In this document: positions 13,970 to 41,802 of the stretch, in pieces | Numbering within the stretch: position 1 is the stretch's first letter | Layout of the letters: each line of letters opens with the position of its first letter | IMG/VR virus record: IMGVR_UViG_3300027963_000035 | Coordinates: 1-64,000 of that record | Origin: a virus | Length of the DNA stretch: 64,000 nucleotides | Reading direction: 5' to 3' (one strand) | Translations under genes and position numbers: made by a program | Notes under the pieces: generated by a model | What the model was told of the DNA's origin: nothing | The model's input: the letters and a program-made list of their open reading frames with translations, nothing else | Databases searched by the model: none

Positions 13970-16512
13970 CTATACAAGGTATAACTTATACCTGGAAAAT
14001 AGGCAGATCTGTTGGCCCCTCCCAATAAAGAGGTGAGATCAGAATAGCTGCCGCCTGTATCATTGACAGTGTTTCTTGAGGTGCCTCTAATAAATTGAAT
14101 TGCAGTTAATTGATTTATATTTCTGTTGGTTGTGGCGTGGGATGCTATCATGCCACATACTTGTGGACTAGCCATGCTTGTTCCGCTTAATTTTGACACA
14201 TAGTATGTAATTGGTTTTCCGATACTTCTAATATCAGGAATACTTGGATATCCGGGAAAAATACTGTGTGTCGTTGAAGCTATCATATCCCCAGGTGAAT
14301 AAACATCTACTCTGGGTCCTGTATTGCTCCAAGTATTTTTTGTTTCTGCTACCAATCTACTTAAAGATCCTACGCTAATTACATTTGGGCAAGCCGTTGG
14401 ACTTGATCCTCTGTGATAATACGTCTCATACATGAATTCAGTAAAATATATTGGGTCCACTCCTTCTGGTAGATACCAACCAAATCCTGGGACTACCACA
14501 TTTAGTTTATTGTCATAATCCGGTCCTCCTGGCACATCTATTTTGGTAGAATTATTGCCCGCCGCCCCTACAACAACTACTCCAGAATTCATCAGGTCTG
14601 TTAAATCTGCTTCCATAGTAATAGTTCTTATTCCTATGTCTATGAATCTTTTACCTTGCATCAATGGATCCGAGTAAGCATAAGATATTAATCCAAAATT
14701 ATTTAATTGTTCTTTTGAAAACCCTCCTCCATTTGTAAATACCACATTTGGTGGTGAGGTATATCCGGAACCTTGATGTGTTATATTTATTCCTATGATT
14801 TTTCCTTGATTTACCCCGGTGCCCAGCACCGCTCTTGCCTCTGCCTTATTTCCGGTTTTAACTCCATCCACCACAGAATTTCCGCCATAAAAGCTAACAA
14901 TTGGATCGGAGGTGTAGCCTTCTCCACACAACCAGGTGTATTTTATACTTTCAACAACATATCTTTCATATATTGTTCCATTTATATTATCTTGAACTAT
15001 CTTATAAGTTGGTTCTCCGTGATAGTCTATAAAAATATCGCCGTTTTTAATTGTACTCAAATCACCATCTGTGTGATTATCCTCAAATGCAAGTATGCTT
15101 ATTTGAGCTGGGGTGGAAGGATTTCCTCCGCTTAATATAACTTCTGGAAAATTTAAATACCCTGATCCTCCATTATTAACAATGGGTTCATTCAAAACCC
15201 CAGACTTTATTTTACATGTTGCCCGTGCTGTTCTTCCTCCATTTGGAGGAGGAGGGAAAGTTATAGTAGGAGGCGTAGTATATCCACTTCCCCTGTTTTG
15301 CATCTCTATATAATAAATTCCAGACCCCTCAACCATCCTAATCGATCCTCTACCTCTTGCCGTTTGGCCTCCCGCAGGAGCAGGGCTGAATGTTATCGGA
15401 ACCCACTCAACCCACGAAGTTGGATATCGCTCGCAGGCAGCGCAAGGATACCCCTCCCCAGGATCGGTTATTGTTATTTCATATATTGTTCCATTTCCAA
15501 CTGGTGCTTTTGCTCTGGCTTGTCCTCCCCCGTAAAATGACACTGTCGGTTCATTTGTATAATTTTTTCCCTGATTTGTAATGGCTCCAGAAACAACCTT
15601 GCCAGAATCAACAGTTGTTGTTGCTGTGGCCCCAGAATAATTTCTTGTAGAAGTATATTTTACGCCTCTGTATGTTACGTCTATAATATTTCTGACATCA
15701 ATTCCACCAATGCCAACCCCGTAGCTATGATTTGTTATAGTGGGATTTTTTGTTCCTTTTTTAATATTTACTGGTTTATTTTCGTGCCAGACTTTAATAG
15801 CATGTAAATATAGATCATGCGGACCATCTGACCTCCAATCTCGGCCGTCGACCATCTCTGCGTGATATGGTGATATGTTATATATATTTGCTTTTGGTGC
15901 CCAACCCTGAGTATTTCCGGCTATTGTTCCTCCTACATGAGCACCGTGATTGTTATCTTCTGTTTCTAGATAATTGTCTGGATTTACATATGGTTCATAA
16001 TTGTATTTTTCATATGGCCGGAAATTATCCGGAACCCCATATGGATATAAAACATTGAACCAATCTATTTGGTTTACTCTGCTTCCGCCTGTTCCATCTT
16101 TTCTTAATGCAAACTCTGGATTATTTGGGTCTATGTGTCCATCTACTACAACAACATCTACATCTTCTCCTGTTGGTATTCTGTAGATTGCTGCTACTGC
16201 ATCTGACGGCGCAGCTTGCATTCTTATATTTTTTTCTTCACCATAATCACGACCAGGATCTAGAATCAGGGGTTTTATTTTATAAGGGATTTTCTGTTGA
16301 ATTGCTTCCACTCTTGGATCTTTTTCAAGTTTTTCTGCTTCTTCTTCTGTTAATCTAAAAGATAAAACTCTTCTTTGTAAATTTGTGTTATTTAAAGCTA
16401 AACATTTTTTTTCCGGAATATATTCATCTCCCGAGTCTTTTTTCATGTCATCTAAGAATGAAGTCTTATCTTTTATGTCTTTTAATACTAAATTATATAT
16501 TTTTTCTTTCAT
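13966..16512 (-). CDS. Subtilisin-like serine protease (S8) with inserted repeat region
   Basis: ATG 16512 is preferred over the in-frame GTG 16521 because it lies just after the upstream stop and has a GGGGTG-type ribosome site. An inhibitor-I9-like propeptide precedes the catalytic triad: Asp124 (VDVVVVDGHID), His189 (NNHGAHVGGTIAG) and Ser779 (GTSMASPQVCGMIA); GAAGNNST supplies the oxyanion Asn. About 330 residues inserted between the His and Ser parts carry five or more GxGYTxxPxVxF-type beta repeats, as found in phage fibre proteins. It probably acts as a virion-associated or self-processing protease. Follows a Thr/Pro-linker protein in the same operon. Confidence 0.9.
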   Translation of the reverse strand: MKEKIYNLVLKDIKDKTSFLDDMKKDSGDEYIPEKKCLALNNTNLQRRVLSFRLTEEEAEKLEKDPRVEAIQQKIPYKIKPLILDPGRDYGEEKNIRMQAAPSDAVAAIYRIPTGEDVDVVVVDGHIDPNNPEFALRKDGTGGSRVNQIDWFNVLYPYGVPDNFRPYEKYNYEPYVNPDNYLETEDNNHGAHVGGTIAGNTQGWAPKANIYNISPYHAEMVDGRDWRSDGPHDLYLHAIKVWHENKPVNIKKGTKNPTITNHSYGVGIGGIDVRNIIDVTYRGVKYTSTRNYSGATATTTVDSGKVVSGAITNQGKNYTNEPTVSFYGGGQARAKAPVGNGTIYEITITDPGEGYPCAACERYPTSWVEWVPITFSPAPAGGQTARGRGSIRMVEGSGIYYIEMQNRGSGYTTPPTITFPPPPNGGRTARATCKIKSGVLNEPIVNNGGSGYLNFPEVILSGGNPSTPAQISILAFEDNHTDGDLSTIKNGDIFIDYHGEPTYKIVQDNINGTIYERYVVESIKYTWLCGEGYTSDPIVSFYGGNSVVDGVKTGNKAEARAVLGTGVNQGKIIGINITHQGSGYTSPPNVVFTNGGGFSKEQLNNFGLISYAYSDPLMQGKRFIDIGIRTITMEADLTDLMNSGVVVVGAAGNNSTKIDVPGGPDYDNKLNVVVPGFGWYLPEGVDPIYFTEFMYETYYHRGSSPTACPNVISVGSLSRLVAETKNTWSNTGPRVDVYSPGDMIASTTHSIFPGYPSIPDIRSIGKPITYYVSKLSGTSMASPQVCGMIASHATTNRNINQLTAIQFIRGTSRNTVNDTGGSYSDLTSLLGGANRSAYFPGISYTLYS

Positions 16513-31824: not shown

Positions 31825-32541
31825 ATGAAAACATTTATTGAGTGGCTAGAATTAAACGAGGCTCGATTTTTTTCTAATTTGTTTGGAGCCAAGAAACAAG
31901 TTGCTCCACAAAATGTGAATCAAGAAACACCAGAAGAAAAAGAACGTAGAAGACAGTCTGATGCTCACGATGATGCAATGAGGATGTTGGTTCCTGGTTA
32001 TAAGCCCTCTGAAAATAAGACCAGTATATCACAACCTAACCTACCAAAAATCTCACAACCTCAACAACAAAATAAACTATCAAAGGCTTTGGATTTGCCT
32101 AAATCTGGGGGTAAAACGCTATTTGATCAACTATATGATTTAGTGGGAGACAAAATACTACCGATTCAGAGAATGAGATCTGAGTCTGATTATTCTCTGA
32201 AGAATTCATCAAATAGTTCTAGATTACGTGAGGCCTATTCATGGCTGTCTCGGGCTAAAAATTACGGAGATGACAATTACGGACTGTCGGTCTCTGAAAT
32301 CGACAAGGCAATTAATATCATAGAGAAGATGTTCAAGGATGAGCTGGGAGCAGTTGCCTTCCCAGACGAAGAAGTAGTTGTTCCGTATGCCAAACCAGAT
32401 TGGAATCCGAAGGATTATCACATCAGTGACGCAGGGATAAGTAGTCTTGAAGAGCCTGCGAAGGTAATAGTAAAAGGTTTCAGATATAGTGGAAGGACTA
32501 CACCCGCTATAATTAGTATAAAAGCCTTTAAAAATTCCTAA
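31825..32541 (+). CDS. Capsid-targeted protein, 238 aa
   Basis: Begins MKTFIEWLELNEARFF, a near-perfect capsid-targeting sequence with Leu-Asn-Glu at residues 10-12 as probable cleavage site. A Gln/Pro-rich segment (about 25-90) follows, then a helical domain (LREAYSWLSRAKNYGDDNYG, SVSEIDKAINIIEKMF) and a C-terminal segment EEVVVPYAKPDWNPKDY. No catalytic motif recognised. A TATAAATC-like box lies 12 bases upstream of the ATG. Predicted internal head protein. Confidence 0.68.
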   Translation: MKTFIEWLELNEARFFSNLFGAKKQVAPQNVNQETPEEKERRRQSDAHDDAMRMLVPGYKPSENKTSISQPNLPKISQPQQQNKLSKALDLPKSGGKTLFDQLYDLVGDKILPIQRMRSESDYSLKNSSNSSRLREAYSWLSRAKNYGDDNYGLSVSEIDKAINIIEKMFKDELGAVAFPDEEVVVPYAKPDWNPKDYHISDAGISSLEEPAKVIVKGFRYSGRTTPAIISIKAFKNS

Positions 32542-34485: not shown

Positions 34486-34959
34486 TTAAGATTGTTGAGA
34501 TAATTTATAATAATTTGCTAATTCGCTCTCTAGGCCATTGATGTATTCAACTATTTTATTATAGTTTCCTTGCTTAACATCATCAACTACCCACTGTGGT
34601 GCTGTGTTGCTATTTAAATCACGATTATTCATTATAAAAGCAAGAGCAGAGTTTATTATTCTAAATTCAAAGTTATTTGCAAAAGTAATCTTTCTGTCGA
34701 AAGGCATTAAGTTTTCTGCTACCATTTTGAAATGTCTTTTTATATGATCTAAAAGAACATCTGGTTTAGCTTGATTTTGTTTTGAACCTACAACTCTTTC
34801 TAATTCTTTTAATATTTGCCTGCTCTGCCCTATAGCCTTTACAAATGCATCTTTTAATCGGGGATCAGTATTGGCTCCACCTTGAGCTGGTTGTTTGGTG
34901 GCTACAAAACCTTGTTGTTGTGGATAGTTCTCGTTTAACCATTCATAAAATGTTTTCAT
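34486..34959 (-). CDS. Capsid-targeted helical protein, 157 aa
   Basis: Begins MKTFYEWLNENYPQQQ, matching the capsid-targeting motif with Leu-Asn-Glu at residues 8-10. The body is a four-helix-like domain: AFVKAIGQSRQILKELERVV, VLLDHIKRHFKMVAENLMPF, FEFRIINSALAFIMNNRDLN, KIVEYINGLESELANYYKLS. A good AAAAGGA ribosome site precedes the ATG. Predicted internal head protein; activity unknown. Confidence 0.7.
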   Translation of the reverse strand: MKTFYEWLNENYPQQQGFVATKQPAQGGANTDPRLKDAFVKAIGQSRQILKELERVVGSKQNQAKPDVLLDHIKRHFKMVAENLMPFDRKITFANNFEFRIINSALAFIMNNRDLNSNTAPQWVVDDVKQGNYNKIVEYINGLESELANYYKLSQQS

Positions 34960-34993: not shown

Positions 34994-35404
34994 TTAACCC
35001 CCATATGGCCAATCTTCTCTTTGTCTTCTCGTGTCAGTGACTGGAAGTCGCCATTCCCCAGTTTTAGGATCACGTATTAATCCTCTAGCTTCCTTTTTCT
35101 TCCGTTCAAGAGCTTCTTCCTCTTTCTTTTTTCTCAAATATTCTGCATTTGCACCCATTGATGCTTCATGGTCTTTTTTTGCCTGAGCCATCCATTGTCT
35201 TTTCTCTTTTTCTTCTTCTGCTTTTTTCATTCTCAAATATTCTGGGCTTCTTTTGTATCTTTTTTGTTCTGCTTCATCTTCTTCAGCAGTAGTTTTACCC
35301 ATAAGTCCCATATTTTGTAATGGTTTTCTAATGAACCCTGGTGTGTAATCCGCCATGTTTTCTTCTATGTTTTTTTCTTTGAGCCATTCATTAAAGCTTT
35401 TCAT
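34994..35404 (-). CDS. Capsid-targeted charged protein, 136 aa
   Basis: Begins MKSFNEWLKEKNIEENM with Leu-Lys-Glu at 8-10, a model capsid-targeting sequence. An AGGAG ribosome site and an upstream TATATAAATTA box are present. The body is dominated by Lys/Glu coiled-coil-like sequence (YLRMKKAEEEKEKRQWMAQA, AEYLRKKKEEEALERKKKEA) and ends in DPKTGEWRLPVTDTRRQRED. Predicted to be packaged; could bind DNA or other core proteins. Function unknown. Confidence 0.68.
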   Translation of the reverse strand: MKSFNEWLKEKNIEENMADYTPGFIRKPLQNMGLMGKTTAEEDEAEQKRYKRSPEYLRMKKAEEEKEKRQWMAQAKKDHEASMGANAEYLRKKKEEEALERKKKEARGLIRDPKTGEWRLPVTDTRRQREDWPYGG

Positions 35405-35453: not shown

Positions 35454-35960
35454 CTACCAATTTTGTCCGATGTACTTGATGGTTTCGATTCCGCTTTTTG
35501 ATTTTGTTGTAATCCATCTTTCTTTTCTATCATTTGTTTCGTCTTTAATCACTTCGCCTTGAATTATTCCTTGTTGAAGCAACTCTTCGGGTCCCAACTT
35601 AACCATGGCCTGGGGAACTTGATTAGCTCTACCAATGAATTTTGTACTTTTGACTCCGTTGGCCCATCTGGTTTCGATGCTTCTAGCACCAGTTCTGTCG
35701 GTTATATCTTTGATAATTTCACCTTCAATCACTCCTTTTTGGAGCAATTCTTCTGGGCTAAGATTGACCATGTTTTGGGAGAGACGCCCACCAGACGATT
35801 TACGCTCTGGTTTAGAGGGAGAATATGTTTTTTTCTCATCTTGTCCTAGTTGATGACCAATCAAGGCGCCAACTGGACCACCAAGAAGAAATCCTGCTCC
35901 TGCTGCCGCTGGCTTGGATACTTCATTTTTTCCTGCCCGCCACTCTTGGAAACTTTTCAT
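35454..35960 (-). CDS. Capsid-targeted-like protein with glycine zipper and internal duplication
   Basis: Begins MKSFQEWRAGKNEV; it keeps the first seven positions of the targeting motif but has Arg at position 8 and Gly at 10, so cleavage is doubtful. Residues about 19-42 are a Gly/Ala-rich hydrophobic segment (AAAGAGFLLGGPVGALIGHQ) resembling a glycine zipper. The remainder contains two copies of a ~45-residue unit: SPEELLQKGVIEGEIIKDIT and GPEELLQQGIIQGEVIKDET, each ending in a (T/E)xxxKxIG strand. Unknown role. Confidence 0.62.
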   Translation of the reverse strand: MKSFQEWRAGKNEVSKPAAAGAGFLLGGPVGALIGHQLGQDEKKTYSPSKPERKSSGGRLSQNMVNLSPEELLQKGVIEGEIIKDITDRTGARSIETRWANGVKSTKFIGRANQVPQAMVKLGPEELLQQGIIQGEVIKDETNDRKERWITTKSKSGIETIKYIGQNW

Positions 35961-36060
35961 GATATTTTCCTTTCGTAATCTGATATCATATGTAGTTAGT
36001 GCGTGTAATTTTACCGCTATTTTTCTGGCGTGGGGGGATAAATATATATACTGTTTAATA

Positions 36061-36068
36061 TATAAATA
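36061..36068 (+). promoter_or_regulatory. T4-late-type TATAAATA box
   Basis: An exact TATAAATA, the -10 consensus of T4 late promoters, lies 1 base before ATG 36070. It may serve the downstream gene (leaderless) or be chance in AT-rich DNA. Confidence 0.3.
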
Positions 36069-36069
36069 T

Positions 36070-37629
36070 ATGAAAAATTACCAAGAAGCAATAGTTGATG
36101 CTCCGAGCCAATCACTCTCTGATATTTTTGACCCCGAAGGAAAACTAAAGTCAGAGGTTGTTAATACTATTATCAAAGGTATCCAGGAGATAAAAAATCA
36201 ATTCCCCAATCTACCAATAGATGATTATTTCGTTGTGGGAGCAGCCGTAACTTACCAGTATTCTCCAAAATCTGATATTGATACAACAATCTCTGTCCCT
36301 CGTGCTCCTGATGATGTTTTTAAACAAGCAAACGATTGGATAGGTTCAAATTTAGATCCTAAATATAAATTTGGCGCTCGTCCATATCAATTCAAAGTTT
36401 CCAAGGGCACAAGAGGCCAATTGCAATCCTTCGATGCAGTATATGATGTTAAAAGCCAAATTAAAACAGGTAAACCAACTTGGATAAAAAAACCAGATCC
36501 AAATAAAACAAGTATGGATTTCAAAAAATTTATATCAAACCAAGAAAGCGAAGAACACGAGTTATATAAATCAATCGAGAAAACAATTAAACCATCAATT
36601 GAAAATTTATTAAAATTAATTAAAGCATCAGGTGGAGTTCTAAACGATCAAATTAAACAGCAAACTGCTGCAGTCTTGGACCGATACAAAATAATTAAAA
36701 AATTAAGATCGAAGTCCTATGACGGGCCAGCTGATTTAAGAGATCAAGATAAGATGAGCAAAAATTGGGGCGTAGGCAATATAGTATATAAATTTCTAGA
36801 CAGAGAGGGTTATGTTGATTTATTTGGAATTTTAAAAGAATTAGTAAAAAATCAATTTCAAAACTTTACATCTATTGTTGGAAAATTAATAAGCTCCCTA
36901 CAGCATGTCGTCAGTAGTTCGATTGGTTTTGGTGTAGGTCATATGAAACAACCACAAATGCAACCACGACCACGAACACAAATGCAACCACGAACAACAC
37001 GACAAGCTCCAAGGCCGCAATTGCAACAATCTTCACAACTGCAAACGGCTTCTATGTTATATAATTCTCCAATGTTATCAGAAGAAAACAATAAGAAAGT
37101 GTTAATAATTGATGTTGAATCCACTTGTGATACTAGTCCAATAACAAATGAAATAATAGAGATAGGATTATCAGATACATCTGGGGCAAAATTTCCTCCT
37201 CTATTCATAAAGCCTGAAAAATCTGAGGTAACAAAATTTTGCACAAAATTAACTTCAATAACACCCGATCAAATAGATAAGCTGGGATTAAGTCCACAAG
37301 AAGCATATAGAAAATTAAATAAAATATTTTCCATGTATGACAAATGGGCATCATATGGAGATTACGACAAAGAGATGCTTTTAAAAATGGAAAGTTTATA
37401 CGGACTAACTATTAATATGCCCGAACACGAAAACGTAAGACTTTTATTTGCACAAAAAGTATTTAATTCAAATAATCCTCAAGTTGCTCCTAAAAATCCA
37501 AAAGACGCACTTGAAATGCTTGGGATGTCTTTCAAGGGATTCAACCATAGAGGTGCAGATGATGCTATGAACATTGCAAATCTTTACAATGTTTTACAAG
37601 ATTATAAAGGCGCAAAGAATCCTCTTTAG
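36070..37629 (+). CDS. Capsid-targeted nucleotidyltransferase / DEDD exonuclease fusion
   Basis: ATG 36070 gives MKNYQEAIVDAPSQ, close to T4's MKTYQEFIAE; the upstream in-frame start translates the leader of the opposite gene. The 519-aa product has an N-terminal nucleotidyltransferase-like fold (DYFVVGAAVTYQYSPKSDID with TTISV, a G...D-x-D pattern, about residues 55-80). A Gln/Arg/Pro linker (about 295-335) follows, then a DEDDh 3'-5' exonuclease: VLIIDVESTCDTSP (Asp-x-Glu), TSITPDQIDKLG, YGDYDKEMLL and NHRGADDAMNIANL (H-x4-D). If packaged, it would be an enzyme delivered with phage DNA. Confidence 0.78.
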   Translation: MKNYQEAIVDAPSQSLSDIFDPEGKLKSEVVNTIIKGIQEIKNQFPNLPIDDYFVVGAAVTYQYSPKSDIDTTISVPRAPDDVFKQANDWIGSNLDPKYKFGARPYQFKVSKGTRGQLQSFDAVYDVKSQIKTGKPTWIKKPDPNKTSMDFKKFISNQESEEHELYKSIEKTIKPSIENLLKLIKASGGVLNDQIKQQTAAVLDRYKIIKKLRSKSYDGPADLRDQDKMSKNWGVGNIVYKFLDREGYVDLFGILKELVKNQFQNFTSIVGKLISSLQHVVSSSIGFGVGHMKQPQMQPRPRTQMQPRTTRQAPRPQLQQSSQLQTASMLYNSPMLSEENNKKVLIIDVESTCDTSPITNEIIEIGLSDTSGAKFPPLFIKPEKSEVTKFCTKLTSITPDQIDKLGLSPQEAYRKLNKIFSMYDKWASYGDYDKEMLLKMESLYGLTINMPEHENVRLLFAQKVFNSNNPQVAPKNPKDALEMLGMSFKGFNHRGADDAMNIANLYNVLQDYKGAKNPL

Positions 37630-37853: not shown

Positions 37854-38642
37854 TTATGTGGTGCAATATTTATTTTTAAATTCCTCCTCATCATAAATAT
37901 CTGCTTTTAATATGTTATCTGGCCCCGGGATAGGACGAAGATTCTCTAGTGAATTTATCTTTTTAATATCAAGTATTCCATGATCTAAAAATGCTTTAAT
38001 TGGAAATATATGATCTACATGCCATGCCTTATCTTTGCATTTTTCATAATCTGGGTGATTTAATATATGCTCTTGTAATTGTTGTGGAGTATAACCCAAT
38101 AGTTCGTGTGTATGGCGTGTTTTATGTTTTCCTGTGGCCTCCATGAATCTTTTAATATGTTGGCCGCACATTTTACGGAACCTTTTACGCAAACTAACAG
38201 CCTCTCTATCTGGATCATACATATGACAATTAGCCCCAGATATTTTTAATGAGCCGCACTTTTTACAATTAGGATATCTTTTAAAATTACCTAAATATGC
38301 TTCTGATTCTCTACCGCATTTACAAACATATTTGATTCTCGTCCTAGTTTTATAAATCCAAGATTCAACTAATTTACATCCATTTTTTTCACATATTTCT
38401 TTTATATCGTTGTCTTTTGTTTTAAATTTATTTGAGAGAATTTTAGGTTTGCAGTTTTCGACGCATCTTTTCCCATTTTGAACGTTAGCTAATCGCATCA
38501 TTGTTTCGTTTCCGCAAATACATATGCACCTCATGGGCTCATTATTATTTTTATAATTTGTTTCCAATAATTTAAATCCTTTTTCTTCAAAAATATGTTT
38601 TACTTGACTATAAGAAAACTTATTTGCTCCTCCGCTTGACAT
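37854..38642 (-). CDS. HNH homing endonuclease
   Basis: ATG 38642 (MSSGGANKFSYSQVKHIF) has a GAGG ribosome site 6 bases upstream; the earlier in-frame ATG at 38687 is inside the capsid-gene terminator. The 262-aa protein has repeated zinc-ribbon-like Cys blocks (MRCICICGNETMMRLANVQ, IKYVCKCGRESEAYLGNFKR, CKKCGS) typical of DNA-recognition repeats in phage endonucleases. The HNH core is WHVDHIFPIKAFLDHG followed by NSLENLRPI. It sits directly downstream of the major capsid gene, a favourite target site for homing endonucleases. Confidence 0.9.
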   Translation of the reverse strand: MSSGGANKFSYSQVKHIFEEKGFKLLETNYKNNNEPMRCICICGNETMMRLANVQNGKRCVENCKPKILSNKFKTKDNDIKEICEKNGCKLVESWIYKTRTRIKYVCKCGRESEAYLGNFKRYPNCKKCGSLKISGANCHMYDPDREAVSLRKRFRKMCGQHIKRFMEATGKHKTRHTHELLGYTPQQLQEHILNHPDYEKCKDKAWHVDHIFPIKAFLDHGILDIKKINSLENLRPIPGPDNILKADIYDEEEFKNKYCTT

Positions 38643-38683
38643 TTTTTCCTCACTTTTAAGTTTGATTGTGTATAGCGTATTAT

Positions 38684-38717
38684 ACAAAAAAACCTTGGCT
38701 GTTTCCAGCCAAGGTTT
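38684..38717 (-). terminator. Terminator downstream of the major capsid gene
   Basis: A perfect 12-bp stem (38690-38701 with 38706-38717, core accttggctg / cagccaaggt) with loop tttc. On the minus strand it is followed by a run of T, fitting the end of the capsid transcript. On the plus strand a TTTTTT run lies 2 bases beyond, so it may act in both directions. Confidence 0.88.
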
Positions 38718-38749: not shown

Positions 38750-40174
38750 TCAGACAATGAAGTTAGCGATGTTAAGTCTGGCATAAAATTTTGCTCCTTC
38801 TCGAAGCAACTTCTTCCCATACCTTGTTAACAGACCCTTACGTGGTGTGAAGGAATCTGGATCAAGGACTACTGGAGTCTGGGTGAGTGGCACGTATGGG
38901 CAGTAGAAGTATCCGCTGTCCATGTAGCTGTCGCCCTTATATCCCATTAGGATTTGACCTGTTGGGAACAGTGGGTCCTTGTAGAGTCTCCAACGATTGT
39001 TCACAGTTCCGACATACTGGATGCCGAGTGAGCTAGTGAAAGTCTCTGAAGGAGCTGGAGCGAAACCGGCTGTGGCTGTTTCGAATACTGAAGCAACTTC
39101 TGGACTTGTTACTAACCAATTGGCACCACCACGTAGTGTCTTACGATGAATTACGTTGCTGACTTCAACAACCTTAACGTATAGACTCTCGTAGCGTTCC
39201 TTGACTGTATCACCGAGGGCGGTGCTATAGTCCCAAGCACTGACGGTACCGGCGTTATTGCGGAGGTCACCTAGAACTTCACGGTCGATTTCTAGATTGA
39301 TTTCCTGAGCAAGAACGGCAGTTAGCTCAGCCTCGGCGTCGAGGTTGTGCTGTGAACGTAGATCTTGCTGAGCCTCATAACTCCAAACTGCCTTCAGTTT
39401 ACGAGTCTTGGCGGCAATCTCTTCGCTCTCGATGGCGAGATTGATCTCGGGCATATCACTGTTGCCTTCCATGTTGTATTCATATGATACAACTACGGTG
39501 TTGGCACTTGGATCATTATTCCAAGTTAGACTAACAGCACCAGTTGTTGGATTAAGTGTACCACTTGTTACCTTGTTACTTGGGCTGCCAACGTCGGTGA
39601 CACTCATTGTGCCGCCAGCTGAAACAACGAAAGTATTGACAACAACTGTACCATCATAAACTGTACCGGTCATTGTGCCAGCGATAACTGGAACGTGCTC
39701 AACAGTGAAAGCAGTGGTTGTGCCACCGGCGTCAGTATGGCTCTCGTTCTGAACGAACTGATGAGAGTAGAAGACGTCGAGATTGGCTGTACCATCGGCT
39801 AACTGCTGTAGTGAGTTAACGTCATCACCTGGGAATCCGCCCTTAGCGGCTCCACGGACAGCACCCTTGTTGCTGCCATATCTAAAACGGAGATAGTAAA
39901 CTAGACCGGTTGGGCCGAGCAATGGCTGGACCGAGACGATCTTGTTTGCAATCAACTGTGGGTAAACTCTGCGAACAAGTGGGATGCTGATTCTTTTGAA
40001 TTGAGCAACGTCACCTGTGTCGGTTGAAACTTCATTGATGAGTCTCTGGTTCTCGAGAAGAACAGCTGTGGTGGATCGGACGTAACGATCTTCGATGCCC
40101 TCCAACAAGCCGGTTTTCTTCCAACGACCTTCTAACTCCTTCGCTTCGTTGAGAAATTTAGCATTTATATTCAT
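38750..40174 (-). CDS. Major capsid protein (T4 gp23-like)
   Basis: A 474-aa protein of the gp23/HK97-fold type. SIPLVRRVYPQLIANKIVSV then QPLLGPTGLVYYLRFRYG correspond to the T4 gp23 segment MVRRAIPNLIAFDICGVQP. LRKTLRGGANWLVTSPEVAS-type and ILMGYKGDSYMDSGYFYCPY segments match the later core. The N-terminal ~50 residues are a probable propeptide with several (L/I)-x-Glu sites (FLNE, LLE, INE). Residues about 170-240 form an Ig-like beta insertion (TMTGTVYDGTVVVNTFVVSA) suggestive of a surface-exposed domain. Last gene of the core-protease-scaffold-capsid operon. Confidence 0.94.
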   Translation of the reverse strand: MNINAKFLNEAKELEGRWKKTGLLEGIEDRYVRSTTAVLLENQRLINEVSTDTGDVAQFKRISIPLVRRVYPQLIANKIVSVQPLLGPTGLVYYLRFRYGSNKGAVRGAAKGGFPGDDVNSLQQLADGTANLDVFYSHQFVQNESHTDAGGTTTAFTVEHVPVIAGTMTGTVYDGTVVVNTFVVSAGGTMSVTDVGSPSNKVTSGTLNPTTGAVSLTWNNDPSANTVVVSYEYNMEGNSDMPEINLAIESEEIAAKTRKLKAVWSYEAQQDLRSQHNLDAEAELTAVLAQEINLEIDREVLGDLRNNAGTVSAWDYSTALGDTVKERYESLYVKVVEVSNVIHRKTLRGGANWLVTSPEVASVFETATAGFAPAPSETFTSSLGIQYVGTVNNRWRLYKDPLFPTGQILMGYKGDSYMDSGYFYCPYVPLTQTPVVLDPDSFTPRKGLLTRYGKKLLREGAKFYARLNIANFIV

Positions 40175-40219: not shown

Positions 40220-41116
40220 TCAGTCTTCTATCTTTTTAATACCAGCTAAAATGTGCAAATCGTTAAAGTCGTGTTGAGTACCATTATTTTCCGCAATAAC
40301 AGCTTCACCAGCGACTACTTGTCCTCTCCCCATTACATTCTTGCTCTTTTCAGCTCTTTCTTTCATTTCATTAACAGTTTTTACCTGTTTTTCATTCTCT
40401 ACAGCCTTGACTTGTTCGGTCACAACTGTTTGTGCGTGGCGAACAGCCTCGGTTAGTTTTGTGTTCTCTGTCGATAGTCTTATGCTTCTGGCCTCTAATA
40501 GCTTGATTTGGCCCTTGAGATCATCAATCTGCTTCTTGGCTTCATCAACCTTAGCAGAACTGACACTTGCATAATCTTCGTCACTTAGATATTCACTTGT
40601 GATATCAACAATCTTGTCGAAAGCACTTCTGTGCTCGACAGTTCTTGGATCAGCAAGGACATCCTTCTTGGCTTGTTCATAGATTTCGGCACCCTTGAAC
40701 TGTAGAAATTGATCTACTTTGTCAACGATGTACTCTTTCATCTCGGCAAGCTTCTTGTCGTATTCTTCATAGAGGGAAACTTCAAGACTACCATTCTTGC
40801 TTCTCTCCTCTTTGAGCATTTCATAAGCTTCTTCGTAGCCCTCTTCGAGAGCTGCTTCATACTCTTCACCTTGAACTTCAAGACGATTTCTGAGTTCAGA
40901 GATGATAGCATAAGCTTCGGTATAACCTTCTTCTGCTGTCTTTTCAGCTGACTTTAGTTCATTGGAAACTTCGGCGTAGGCCTCCTCCAATTTGGAATTA
41001 AATTCAGTCTCTAGTTCTGACTTTGCATCCTTTAACATTTCTTCGACTGCTGAGCTTACCTCTTGAATCTGATCAGCAGGTAAGAGTTTTTCTAGTGCTT
41101 CTTTAATTTTGTTCAT
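40220..41116 (-). CDS. Prohead core scaffold protein (T4 gp22-like)
   Basis: ATG 41116 overlaps the protease stop (ATGA); an upstream in-frame start is rejected. The 298-aa product (MNKIKEALEKLLPADQ...) is almost entirely coiled coil, rich in Glu, Ala and Lys (EEGYTEAYAIISELRNRLEV, YDKKLAEMKEYIVDKVDQFL, KKQIDDLKGQIKLLEARSIR). Position between prohead protease and major capsid gene matches T4 gene 22. Such scaffolds are degraded at (L/I)-x-Glu sites, many of which are present. Confidence 0.87.
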   Translation of the reverse strand: MNKIKEALEKLLPADQIQEVSSAVEEMLKDAKSELETEFNSKLEEAYAEVSNELKSAEKTAEEGYTEAYAIISELRNRLEVQGEEYEAALEEGYEEAYEMLKEERSKNGSLEVSLYEEYDKKLAEMKEYIVDKVDQFLQFKGAEIYEQAKKDVLADPRTVEHRSAFDKIVDITSEYLSDEDYASVSSAKVDEAKKQIDDLKGQIKLLEARSIRLSTENTKLTEAVRHAQTVVTEQVKAVENEKQVKTVNEMKERAEKSKNVMGRGQVVAGEAVIAENNGTQHDFNDLHILAGIKKIED

Positions 41117-41802
41117 GAGCCTAAACCTCGCTTTAATGAATTGGTTGAATTTTCGATTATTGTTCCTAAACAAGCAATTAACGCTTCTTTATTAACAGTA
41201 TATATGCTGCTGCTTTCATTTTTTGCAGGAATTTCTTCCACCGCAGAAGAAATTTCTACACTTTCTTTCTTATCCTTCTTATCAGTAACCTTCTCTTGAA
41301 AAGCTGCGAAAGTGCTAGGATCAGCTACTGCGTCGAATGTTATAAGTTTATAACTTTCACCGATAACTAATACTCCATTTTCATTTACTTTTCCATTACC
41401 AACGCCTCTGCTGCTAATGCCAACTCTAACACCGTCGTTCAAAAGACTTCTCAGTATTTTTCCGTGAGGTGTGTTGAGTATTTCGCCTTCGCCCATGAGG
41501 ACATTGCCGTCCCACCAAAGCTTGGTGATGACATGGCTAGCCTTTTCAAAATGTATAATGCTGTCGGTTGGGTGATCTAACTCACCAATTAAACCTCTGT
41601 GCTTTACACATTCGTTAAGTTTTTTGACGTTCTCACTGAGAACTTCAAAAGGATATATTCTTTTGTTTTTATTAATAGCTTCAGCTTCTTGGAACTTGCC
41701 ACGGAATCTGGTTAAGCCTTTGTCCGTGACACTTTCATTTAGGTCCATGTTGAACCCACCACCGCTGCAGCTATCTACGAATAGCATTTGATCTTTTGAC
41801 AT
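41113..41802 (-). CDS. Prohead maturation protease (T4 gp21-like)
   Basis: A 229-aa serine protease of the herpesvirus-assemblin/gp21 type. The catalytic His lies in GELDHPTD (about residue 75) and the catalytic Ser in RVGISSRGVGNGKV (about 124); FDAVADPSTFAAF closes the core. RIYPFEVLSENVKKLNE near the N-terminus is the typical lead-in. It cleaves scaffold, capsid and internal proteins, classically after (L/I)-x-Glu, and thus links to the many proteins here with that motif at residues 8-10. Confidence 0.92.
   Translation of the reverse strand: MSKDQMLFVDSCSGGGFNMDLNESVTDKGLTRFRGKFQEAEAINKNKRIYPFEVLSENVKKLNECVKHRGLIGELDHPTDSIIHFEKASHVITKLWWDGNVLMGEGEILNTPHGKILRSLLNDGVRVGISSRGVGNGKVNENGVLVIGESYKLITFDAVADPSTFAAFQEKVTDKKDKKESVEISSAVEEIPAKNESSSIYTVNKEALIACLGTIIENSTNSLKRGLGS

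Follow-up and report, generated by a model that had tools for sequence, protein, structure and literature searches.

The open reading frame at 36070-37629 of the window (the whole 64 kb stretch of DNA analysed, part of a 251,265-base virus record) encodes a fusion of a nucleotidyltransferase (NTase) and a DEDDh exonuclease which is probably an internal (ejection) protein carrying two independent effectors, packaged in the head, clipped, and ejected with the DNA for counter-defence or host takeover. Judged by its sequence, the source phage is a T4-like jumbo phage. The sequence-only reading had proposed that the enzyme is packaged in the head; this proposal is well supported by a leader, a prohead-protease-type site, a surrounding island of head genes and a homolog in virions of cyanophage S-CREM2, from which we infer packaging itself. 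Cleavage, ejection, substrates and purpose are likewise predicted. Taken one by one, packaged internal proteins, Pol-beta NTases and ERI1-type exonucleases are familiar classes, and both folds are known separately; their fusion in a putatively head-packaged protein appears to be new.

The frame is unbroken from the ATG at 36070 to the stop at 37629, and its features are summarized in Table 1. A longer reading from a TTG at 35914 would add 52 residues that are common to no relative. No second copy of the gene was found across the 251,265-base record. Among the relatives found, the NTase-exonuclease fusion was seen in two phages only, the window phage and that of locus L098, which upholds the earlier remark that the pairing of domains is unfamiliar. 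The three features on which that remark was based (a leader-like N-terminus, an NTase-like core and a C-terminal DEDDh exonuclease) were confirmed by sequence and structure prediction. The check suggested for both halves also came out in their favour, AlphaFold and Foldseek supporting the NTase and exonuclease folds and hhalign supporting the NTase.

Table 1. Features of the fusion gene and its surroundings (window coordinates).
Feature	Position	Strand	Evidence
CDS: leader, NTase, linker and DEDDh exonuclease	36070..37629	+	519 aa; 66% identity to the full-length homolog L098:4386-5861
Putative capsid-targeting leader, MKNYQE, which the prohead protease is predicted to cut behind Glu6 (YQE|A)	36070..36087	+	Junction motif
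Pol-beta-type NTase domain and C-terminal helical domain, residues 11-285	36100..36924	+	AlphaFold, hhalign, Foldseek
NTase signature GAAVTYQYSPKSDID with catalytic-type D69 and D71	36238..36282	+	G57, T61, Q63, D69 and D71 invariant in clade
Gln107, in place of the third NTase carboxylate	36388..36390	+	hhalign alignment to cyanophage clade
Disordered Pro/Gln-rich linker, residues 286-341	36925..37092	+	pLDDT about 30; motif scan
ERI1-type DEDDh 3'-5' exonuclease domain (D348, E350, D433, H493, D498)	37093..37602	+	Pfam, alignment, Foldseek
MKTFIEWL capsid-targeting leader gene	31825..32541	+	Leader scan
MKTFYEWL capsid-targeting leader gene	34486..34959	-	Leader scan; ortholog in L020
MKSFNEWL capsid-targeting leader gene	34994..35404	-	Leader scan
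MKSFQEWR capsid-targeting leader gene, divergent neighbour of the fusion gene	35454..35960	-	Leader scan
HNH-endonuclease-like gene, between the fusion gene and gp23	37854..38687	-	phrog_559, E 2.7e-10
Major capsid protein gp23	38750..40174	-	Pfam Gp23, 1e-89
Scaffold (gp22-like) gene	40220..41173	-	Position between gp21 and gp23 only
Prohead protease gp21	41113..41802	-	Pfam Peptidase_S77, 2e-27; phrog_207, 1.5e-49

The N-terminal motif is a genuine Pol-beta signature of the form G-[GSA]...[ST]DxD, and residues G57, T61, Q63, D69 and D71 are invariant among 11 sequences of the NTase clade. Direct searches of Pfam and PHROGs with the N-terminal half gave nothing above threshold, the best Pfam match being NTP_transf_2 with a sub-threshold E of 0.08. 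The related-locus search with the raw fusion protein as query retrieved no relative, and tblastn of the N-terminal half against phages gave matches at chance level only. Relatives were reached by a degenerate DNA motif scan for TYQYxxx[ST]DID followed by alignment-based scans, which together gave about eleven distinct NTases; a second degenerate scan added no further ones. When one of these relatives served as query, matches came from cyanophages, Caulobacter phages, Lak phages and further huge phages. The window clade aligned to the cyanophage clade with an hhalign probability of 97.8% across 199 columns, and eight of the nine cyanophage-clade members matched NTP_transf_2 (best E 5e-5). Because the relatives thus link the window clade to a clade that matches NTP_transf_2, the NTase assignment is solid. 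The AlphaFold model of residues 11-285 had a pLDDT of about 90. Its best Foldseek matches in the PDB were AAD(9), ANT(4'') and the MNT antitoxin, each weak (E 2e-3 or higher), and stronger matches were obtained to uncharacterised phage proteins (1e-8 to 1e-6). Apart from NTP_transf_2, for which the window protein stays below the cut-off, the only NTase-family matches were weak MTPAP-like ones of its relatives; RlaP, CCA-adding and AbiEii/MenT identities were discarded, since the Pfam scans gave no match to any such family.

The fold and the D69/D71 pair of the NTase-like core that had been proposed are therefore sound, but its usual third acid is replaced. In the hhalign alignment (PYQFK against PVELY) Gln107 falls opposite Glu117, which is invariant in the cyanophage clade, and this position is Gln or Asn across the entire window clade, so that the window protein lacks the usual third catalytic carboxylate of the Pol-beta superfamily. 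D126 is present in nearly all members without the Glu and is Ser in the cyanophage clade; from this distribution, it could stand in for the lost acid. Because the clade has swapped its third catalytic acid from E to Q/N, nucleotidyl transfer is not to be assumed; the reaction may proceed in a modified way, or the domain may bind nucleotides without transferring them.

The C-terminal half matches Pfam RNase_T (residues 345-506, E 6e-12) and phrog_192 (residues 311-514, E 6e-10), and the closest solved structures by sequence are those of human ERI1/3'hExo (2e-7). All five DEDDh catalytic residues, D348, E350, D433, H493 and D498, are invariant among 23 sequences. In the full-length AlphaFold model this half, with a coverage of just two aligned sequences, came out poorly; modelled separately with the 23 sequences, the domain reached a mean pLDDT of 93.7, and its best Foldseek matches in the PDB were 3'hExo/ERI1 proteins (4e-10 downward), followed by DnaQ and RNase T. 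On the alignment and the model, the exonuclease half is firm as regards fold and residues. The DEDDh domain had thus been correctly recognized, with the amendment that its nearest solved relatives are RNA-acting ERI1-type enzymes and not DNA exonucleases. Between the two halves lies a long linker whose sequence is not conserved. A motif scan of this linker picked out LSE338|E (the bar marks the cut) as a candidate second protease site; it is weak evidence of cleavage, because the protein has six hydrophobic-x-E sites in all, and LSE338|E is not conserved in L098.

The two halves might constitute one coupled RNA-end remodeller, packaged or not: the exonuclease would shorten the 3' end of an RNA such as tRNA and the NTase would add nucleotides to it, with the effect that host RNA is damaged or that RNA cleaved by the defences of the host is repaired. 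That the domains are fused in two phages and that the nearest exonuclease structures act on RNA 3' ends are in line with such an enzyme, as is the frequent occurrence in jumbo phages of Pol-beta NTases that restore RNA ends, such as RlaP and CCA-adding enzymes (PMC7824862). We nevertheless consider it unlikely: these families and AbiEii/MenT are absent from the Pfam scans, the best NTase folds are modifiers of small molecules or proteins, a long, disordered linker without sequence conservation joins the halves, the NTase has lost its third acid, and each domain exists alone elsewhere. A specifically head-packaged version, in which an NTase with a relocated acid (e.g. D126) would re-tail or cap the same RNA that the exonuclease has trimmed, seems rather improbable; if true, a remodeller of RNA 3' ends acting on host or defence RNA moments after DNA entry would be a type of ejected enzyme not previously described.

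The NTase stands alone in most relatives, and the other exonuclease homologs are likewise stand-alone proteins, those on other viral contigs being about 190 aa long and leaderless. In L100, a separate, leader-bearing DEDDh exonuclease is encoded within about 6 kb of the NTase. Because the domains are separable in this way, we prefer the view that one leader delivers two effectors to that of a single coupled enzyme. The L100 NTase has the leader MKNLFENWKAYLKE, and neighbouring genes have one of the same type: at L100:7965-12346 (+) and 14960-15931 (-) lie genes with an MK-L-L/F-EN/SW---hydrophobic--E leader, namely the NTase, the DEDDh exonuclease and three others without an assigned function. 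Judged by its sequence pattern, this is apparently a second kind of head-targeting leader. In L103 (7944-9557) the NTase is followed by a different C-terminal region, an extension behind a second leader-like stretch (FFRKYADIIQAAHTSPLQE|A); by eye this extension resembles the PGDYG neighbour of the L098 fusion, and Pfam gave no match for it.

The window protein begins with MKNYQEAIVDA. Of the leader MKNYQEAIVD originally proposed, the start is indeed leader-like, but only about six residues, MKNYQE, can be counted as leader, because relatives share E|AIVDxPxxxLSDIFD; AIVD belongs to what is conserved across the NTase family. Across the parent genome, the loose leader pattern ATGAARWVNTWYNNNGAR gave 14 matches (one with an in-frame stop), the fusion gene among them, against two for the reversed-pattern control, and the strict form MK[ST][FY]xEW gave seven against none. 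MKNYQE fits the loose and not the strict pattern, being short and without the Trp of the strict motif, and the closest relative, L098 (66% identical and also a fusion), has the fuller leader MKNFHKWLE. A leader arising by pure chance was judged unlikely, as the leader-motif counts of both genome and lineage exceed those of the controls.

The leader is closed by a prohead-protease-type site (hydrophobic-x-Glu), YQE|A. The motif hydrophobic-x-E|A/S was present at this junction in all nine family members, the window protein included, outside the L102/L105/L124 lineage, and the junction Glu was absent in all three members of that lineage; these counts come from homologous sequences that are not independent, and the start codon of L099 is uncertain. 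Upstream of the junction Glu the leaders vary in both sequence and length (4-38 aa) across the family, and the argument from the junction is that the Glu persists while the surrounding sequence does not. In the L102 and L105 records, which may be fragments, gp21 and gp23 were looked for and not found; genes beside their NTases also begin with NW[YWFL]K-type leaders. P3 of the window site is Tyr (YQE) as compared with Ile at the T4 ITE-6 site. A leader of six residues has a precedent, because T4 Alt also loses six, being cut at ITE-6 (PMC5694885).

The phage encodes both a gp21-type protease and a gp23 capsid protein (Table 1); for the gp22-like gene between them, Pfam and PHROGs gave no convincing family match. 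Four of the seven strict leader starts fall within 31.8-36.0 kb. In loci related by gp23, the leader motif was found at 115 starts as compared with seven for reversed controls, and the leader-bearing proteins fall into about 42 clusters. These clusters (L018-L099 and the window) include an FMN-reductase-like protein, L066:8958-9824, and PGDYG-domain leader proteins are found at L082:17133-18002 and L098:5889-6650. Locus L020 matches the window at 98.5% identity through 5.2 kb across gp23-gp21 and yet has other genes at the place of the fusion gene, and the NTase was not found in any of the 22 gp23-relative records searched, a set that contains no positive control. Together with the leader counts, these observations place the fusion gene in an island of genes with leaders that is hypervariable, much as the internal-protein loci of T4 are. 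Elsewhere in the record, far from the head cluster, two divergent leader genes with MKTFNEW starts lie about 350 bp apart (G000 141989-142376). The 109-bp intergenic stretch 35961-36069, between the divergent MKSFQEWR and MKNYQE genes, contains TATAAATA-like late-promoter words. One T4-type late-promoter word, GATAAATA, is positioned 33 bp upstream of the ATG of the fusion gene; it was given no weight because few other head genes here have one.

The L098 fusion gene is directly downstream of gp21-scaffold-gp23, and in L104 the NTase gene comes directly after gp21. The gene directly before gp21 of L104 (L104:4062-4763) starts with the leader MKLLMESWRQFLKE and encodes a P-loop protein (AAA_33, kinase-like), a possible packaged kinase. 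The adjacency of the L104 NTase to gp21, together with the Gln/Asn at the third-acid position throughout the clade, would fit a protein of the prohead core or another structural part, whose NTase fold is a catalytically dead scaffold for binding nucleotides or DNA and whose exonuclease works on the ends of packaged or incoming DNA. This is very improbable, since D69 and D71 are invariant and the nearest exonuclease relatives are RNases; moreover, the NTase was not found in any of the 22 gp23-relative records, which makes a core structural role in that lineage unlikely.

In the virion proteome of S-CREM2, mass spectrometry detected ORF156 (126012-126725), a 'hypothetical protein', with 6 unique peptides and 15.2% coverage (PMC10665884 Table 3); the authors caution that CsCl purification may carry along abundant proteins that are not part of the virion (PMC10665884). 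The encoded gp156, the same gene as L132:2959-3672, is a distant homolog of the window protein, belonging to the NTase family by hhalign (97.8%), and on this alignment it is a previously unrecognised NTase. Like the window protein, gp156 and the related cyanophage NTases have the homologous NTase and helical domain, and gp156 has a possible early site, MKKLISE|L; they differ in having no exonuclease and in keeping the third acid (PVELY) that the window clade has lost. The genes for gp154, gp155 and gp156 are adjacent (OR473000.1, 124608-126725) and all three products were detected in virions, gp154 being a virion cytidylyltransferase with a T4-like leader, MKNFSSFLTE|A.

The virion homolog also bears on the possibility that the fusion is an ordinary cytoplasmic enzyme, not packaged, with MKNYQE resembling a leader by chance. 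The window leader is weak next to those of its neighbours, and ERI1-like exonucleases elsewhere have no leaders. Against this stand the clear leader of the closest ortholog, L098, the conserved junction motif, the position of the gene inside a leader-gene island beside gp21-gp23, and the detection of the homolog in S-CREM2 virions; we hold an unpackaged enzyme to be improbable.

For the favoured two-effector internal protein we envisage the following sequence of events. The short leader would draw the fusion protein into the prohead core, where the gp21-type protease would clip it after Glu6 (YQE|A) and possibly again within the linker at LSE338|E. The clipped protein would remain in the head beside the DNA and enter the host upon infection. 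There, the ERI1-type domain would trim RNA 3' ends, and the NTase-fold domain would bind a nucleotide or transfer it to a target in the host; by analogy with the MNT and ANT/AAD relatives, this target would most likely be a small molecule or a protein. The likely purpose would be counter-defence early in infection, or takeover of the host. T4 IPI-III and Alt offer parallels: IP1-3 enter the host by injection and inhibit GmrSD (PMC12373910). Alt, likewise injected, is a modifying enzyme.

The T4 internal proteins known so far are mostly small inhibitors, with Alt the main ejected enzyme; if packaged, the fusion would add RNA trimming to what a phage delivers at time zero. The link to gp156 ties a 'hypothetical' virion protein to a widespread phage NTase family, so that the role of gp156 can be tested in a cultured phage, and the junction motif provides a sequence test for further ejected enzymes in uncultured T4-like phages.

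Among known systems, T4 IPI-IPIII share with the window protein a short N-terminal leader (putative in the window protein), a prohead-protease-type site, a hypervariable accessory locus and a phage of the T4 gp21/gp23 type, but they are small inhibitors of the GmrSD nuclease without enzyme domains, whereas the window protein has 519 aa and two domains. T4 Alt, with which it had been compared from the start, is a fair functional analogue, having a six-residue leader and an ejection like that predicted here; Alt carries an ADP-ribosyltransferase, however, in place of which the window protein has NTase and DEDDh domains. An ADP-ribosyltransferase domain was sought in Pfam, PHROGs and NCBIfam without a match, and identity with Alt was rejected on this ground. 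ERI1/3'hExo, KapD and the phage ERI1-like exonucleases share the DEDDh fold and all catalytic residues at roughly 25-40% identity, the phage proteins differing from the fusion in standing alone at about 190 aa, without leader or NTase. Foldseek picks MNT antitoxin and the ANT/AAD adenylyltransferases as the nearest solved NTase folds, each with a weak match (E 2e-3 or higher); they have resistance or antitoxin roles and no exonuclease, while the window protein carries one. Polyvalent proteins deliver several effector domains together, and Pol-beta NTases are on their domain list (Iyer et al. 2017, PMC5512222). In the part of that survey drawn on here, Pol-beta NTases occur only in proteins of conjugative elements, some domains occur solo in phages, and no NTase-exonuclease pair of this sort is described (PMC5512222). 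The window protein has two effector domains, with delivery predicted, and by Pfam neither an ArdC-N nor a zincin hub domain.
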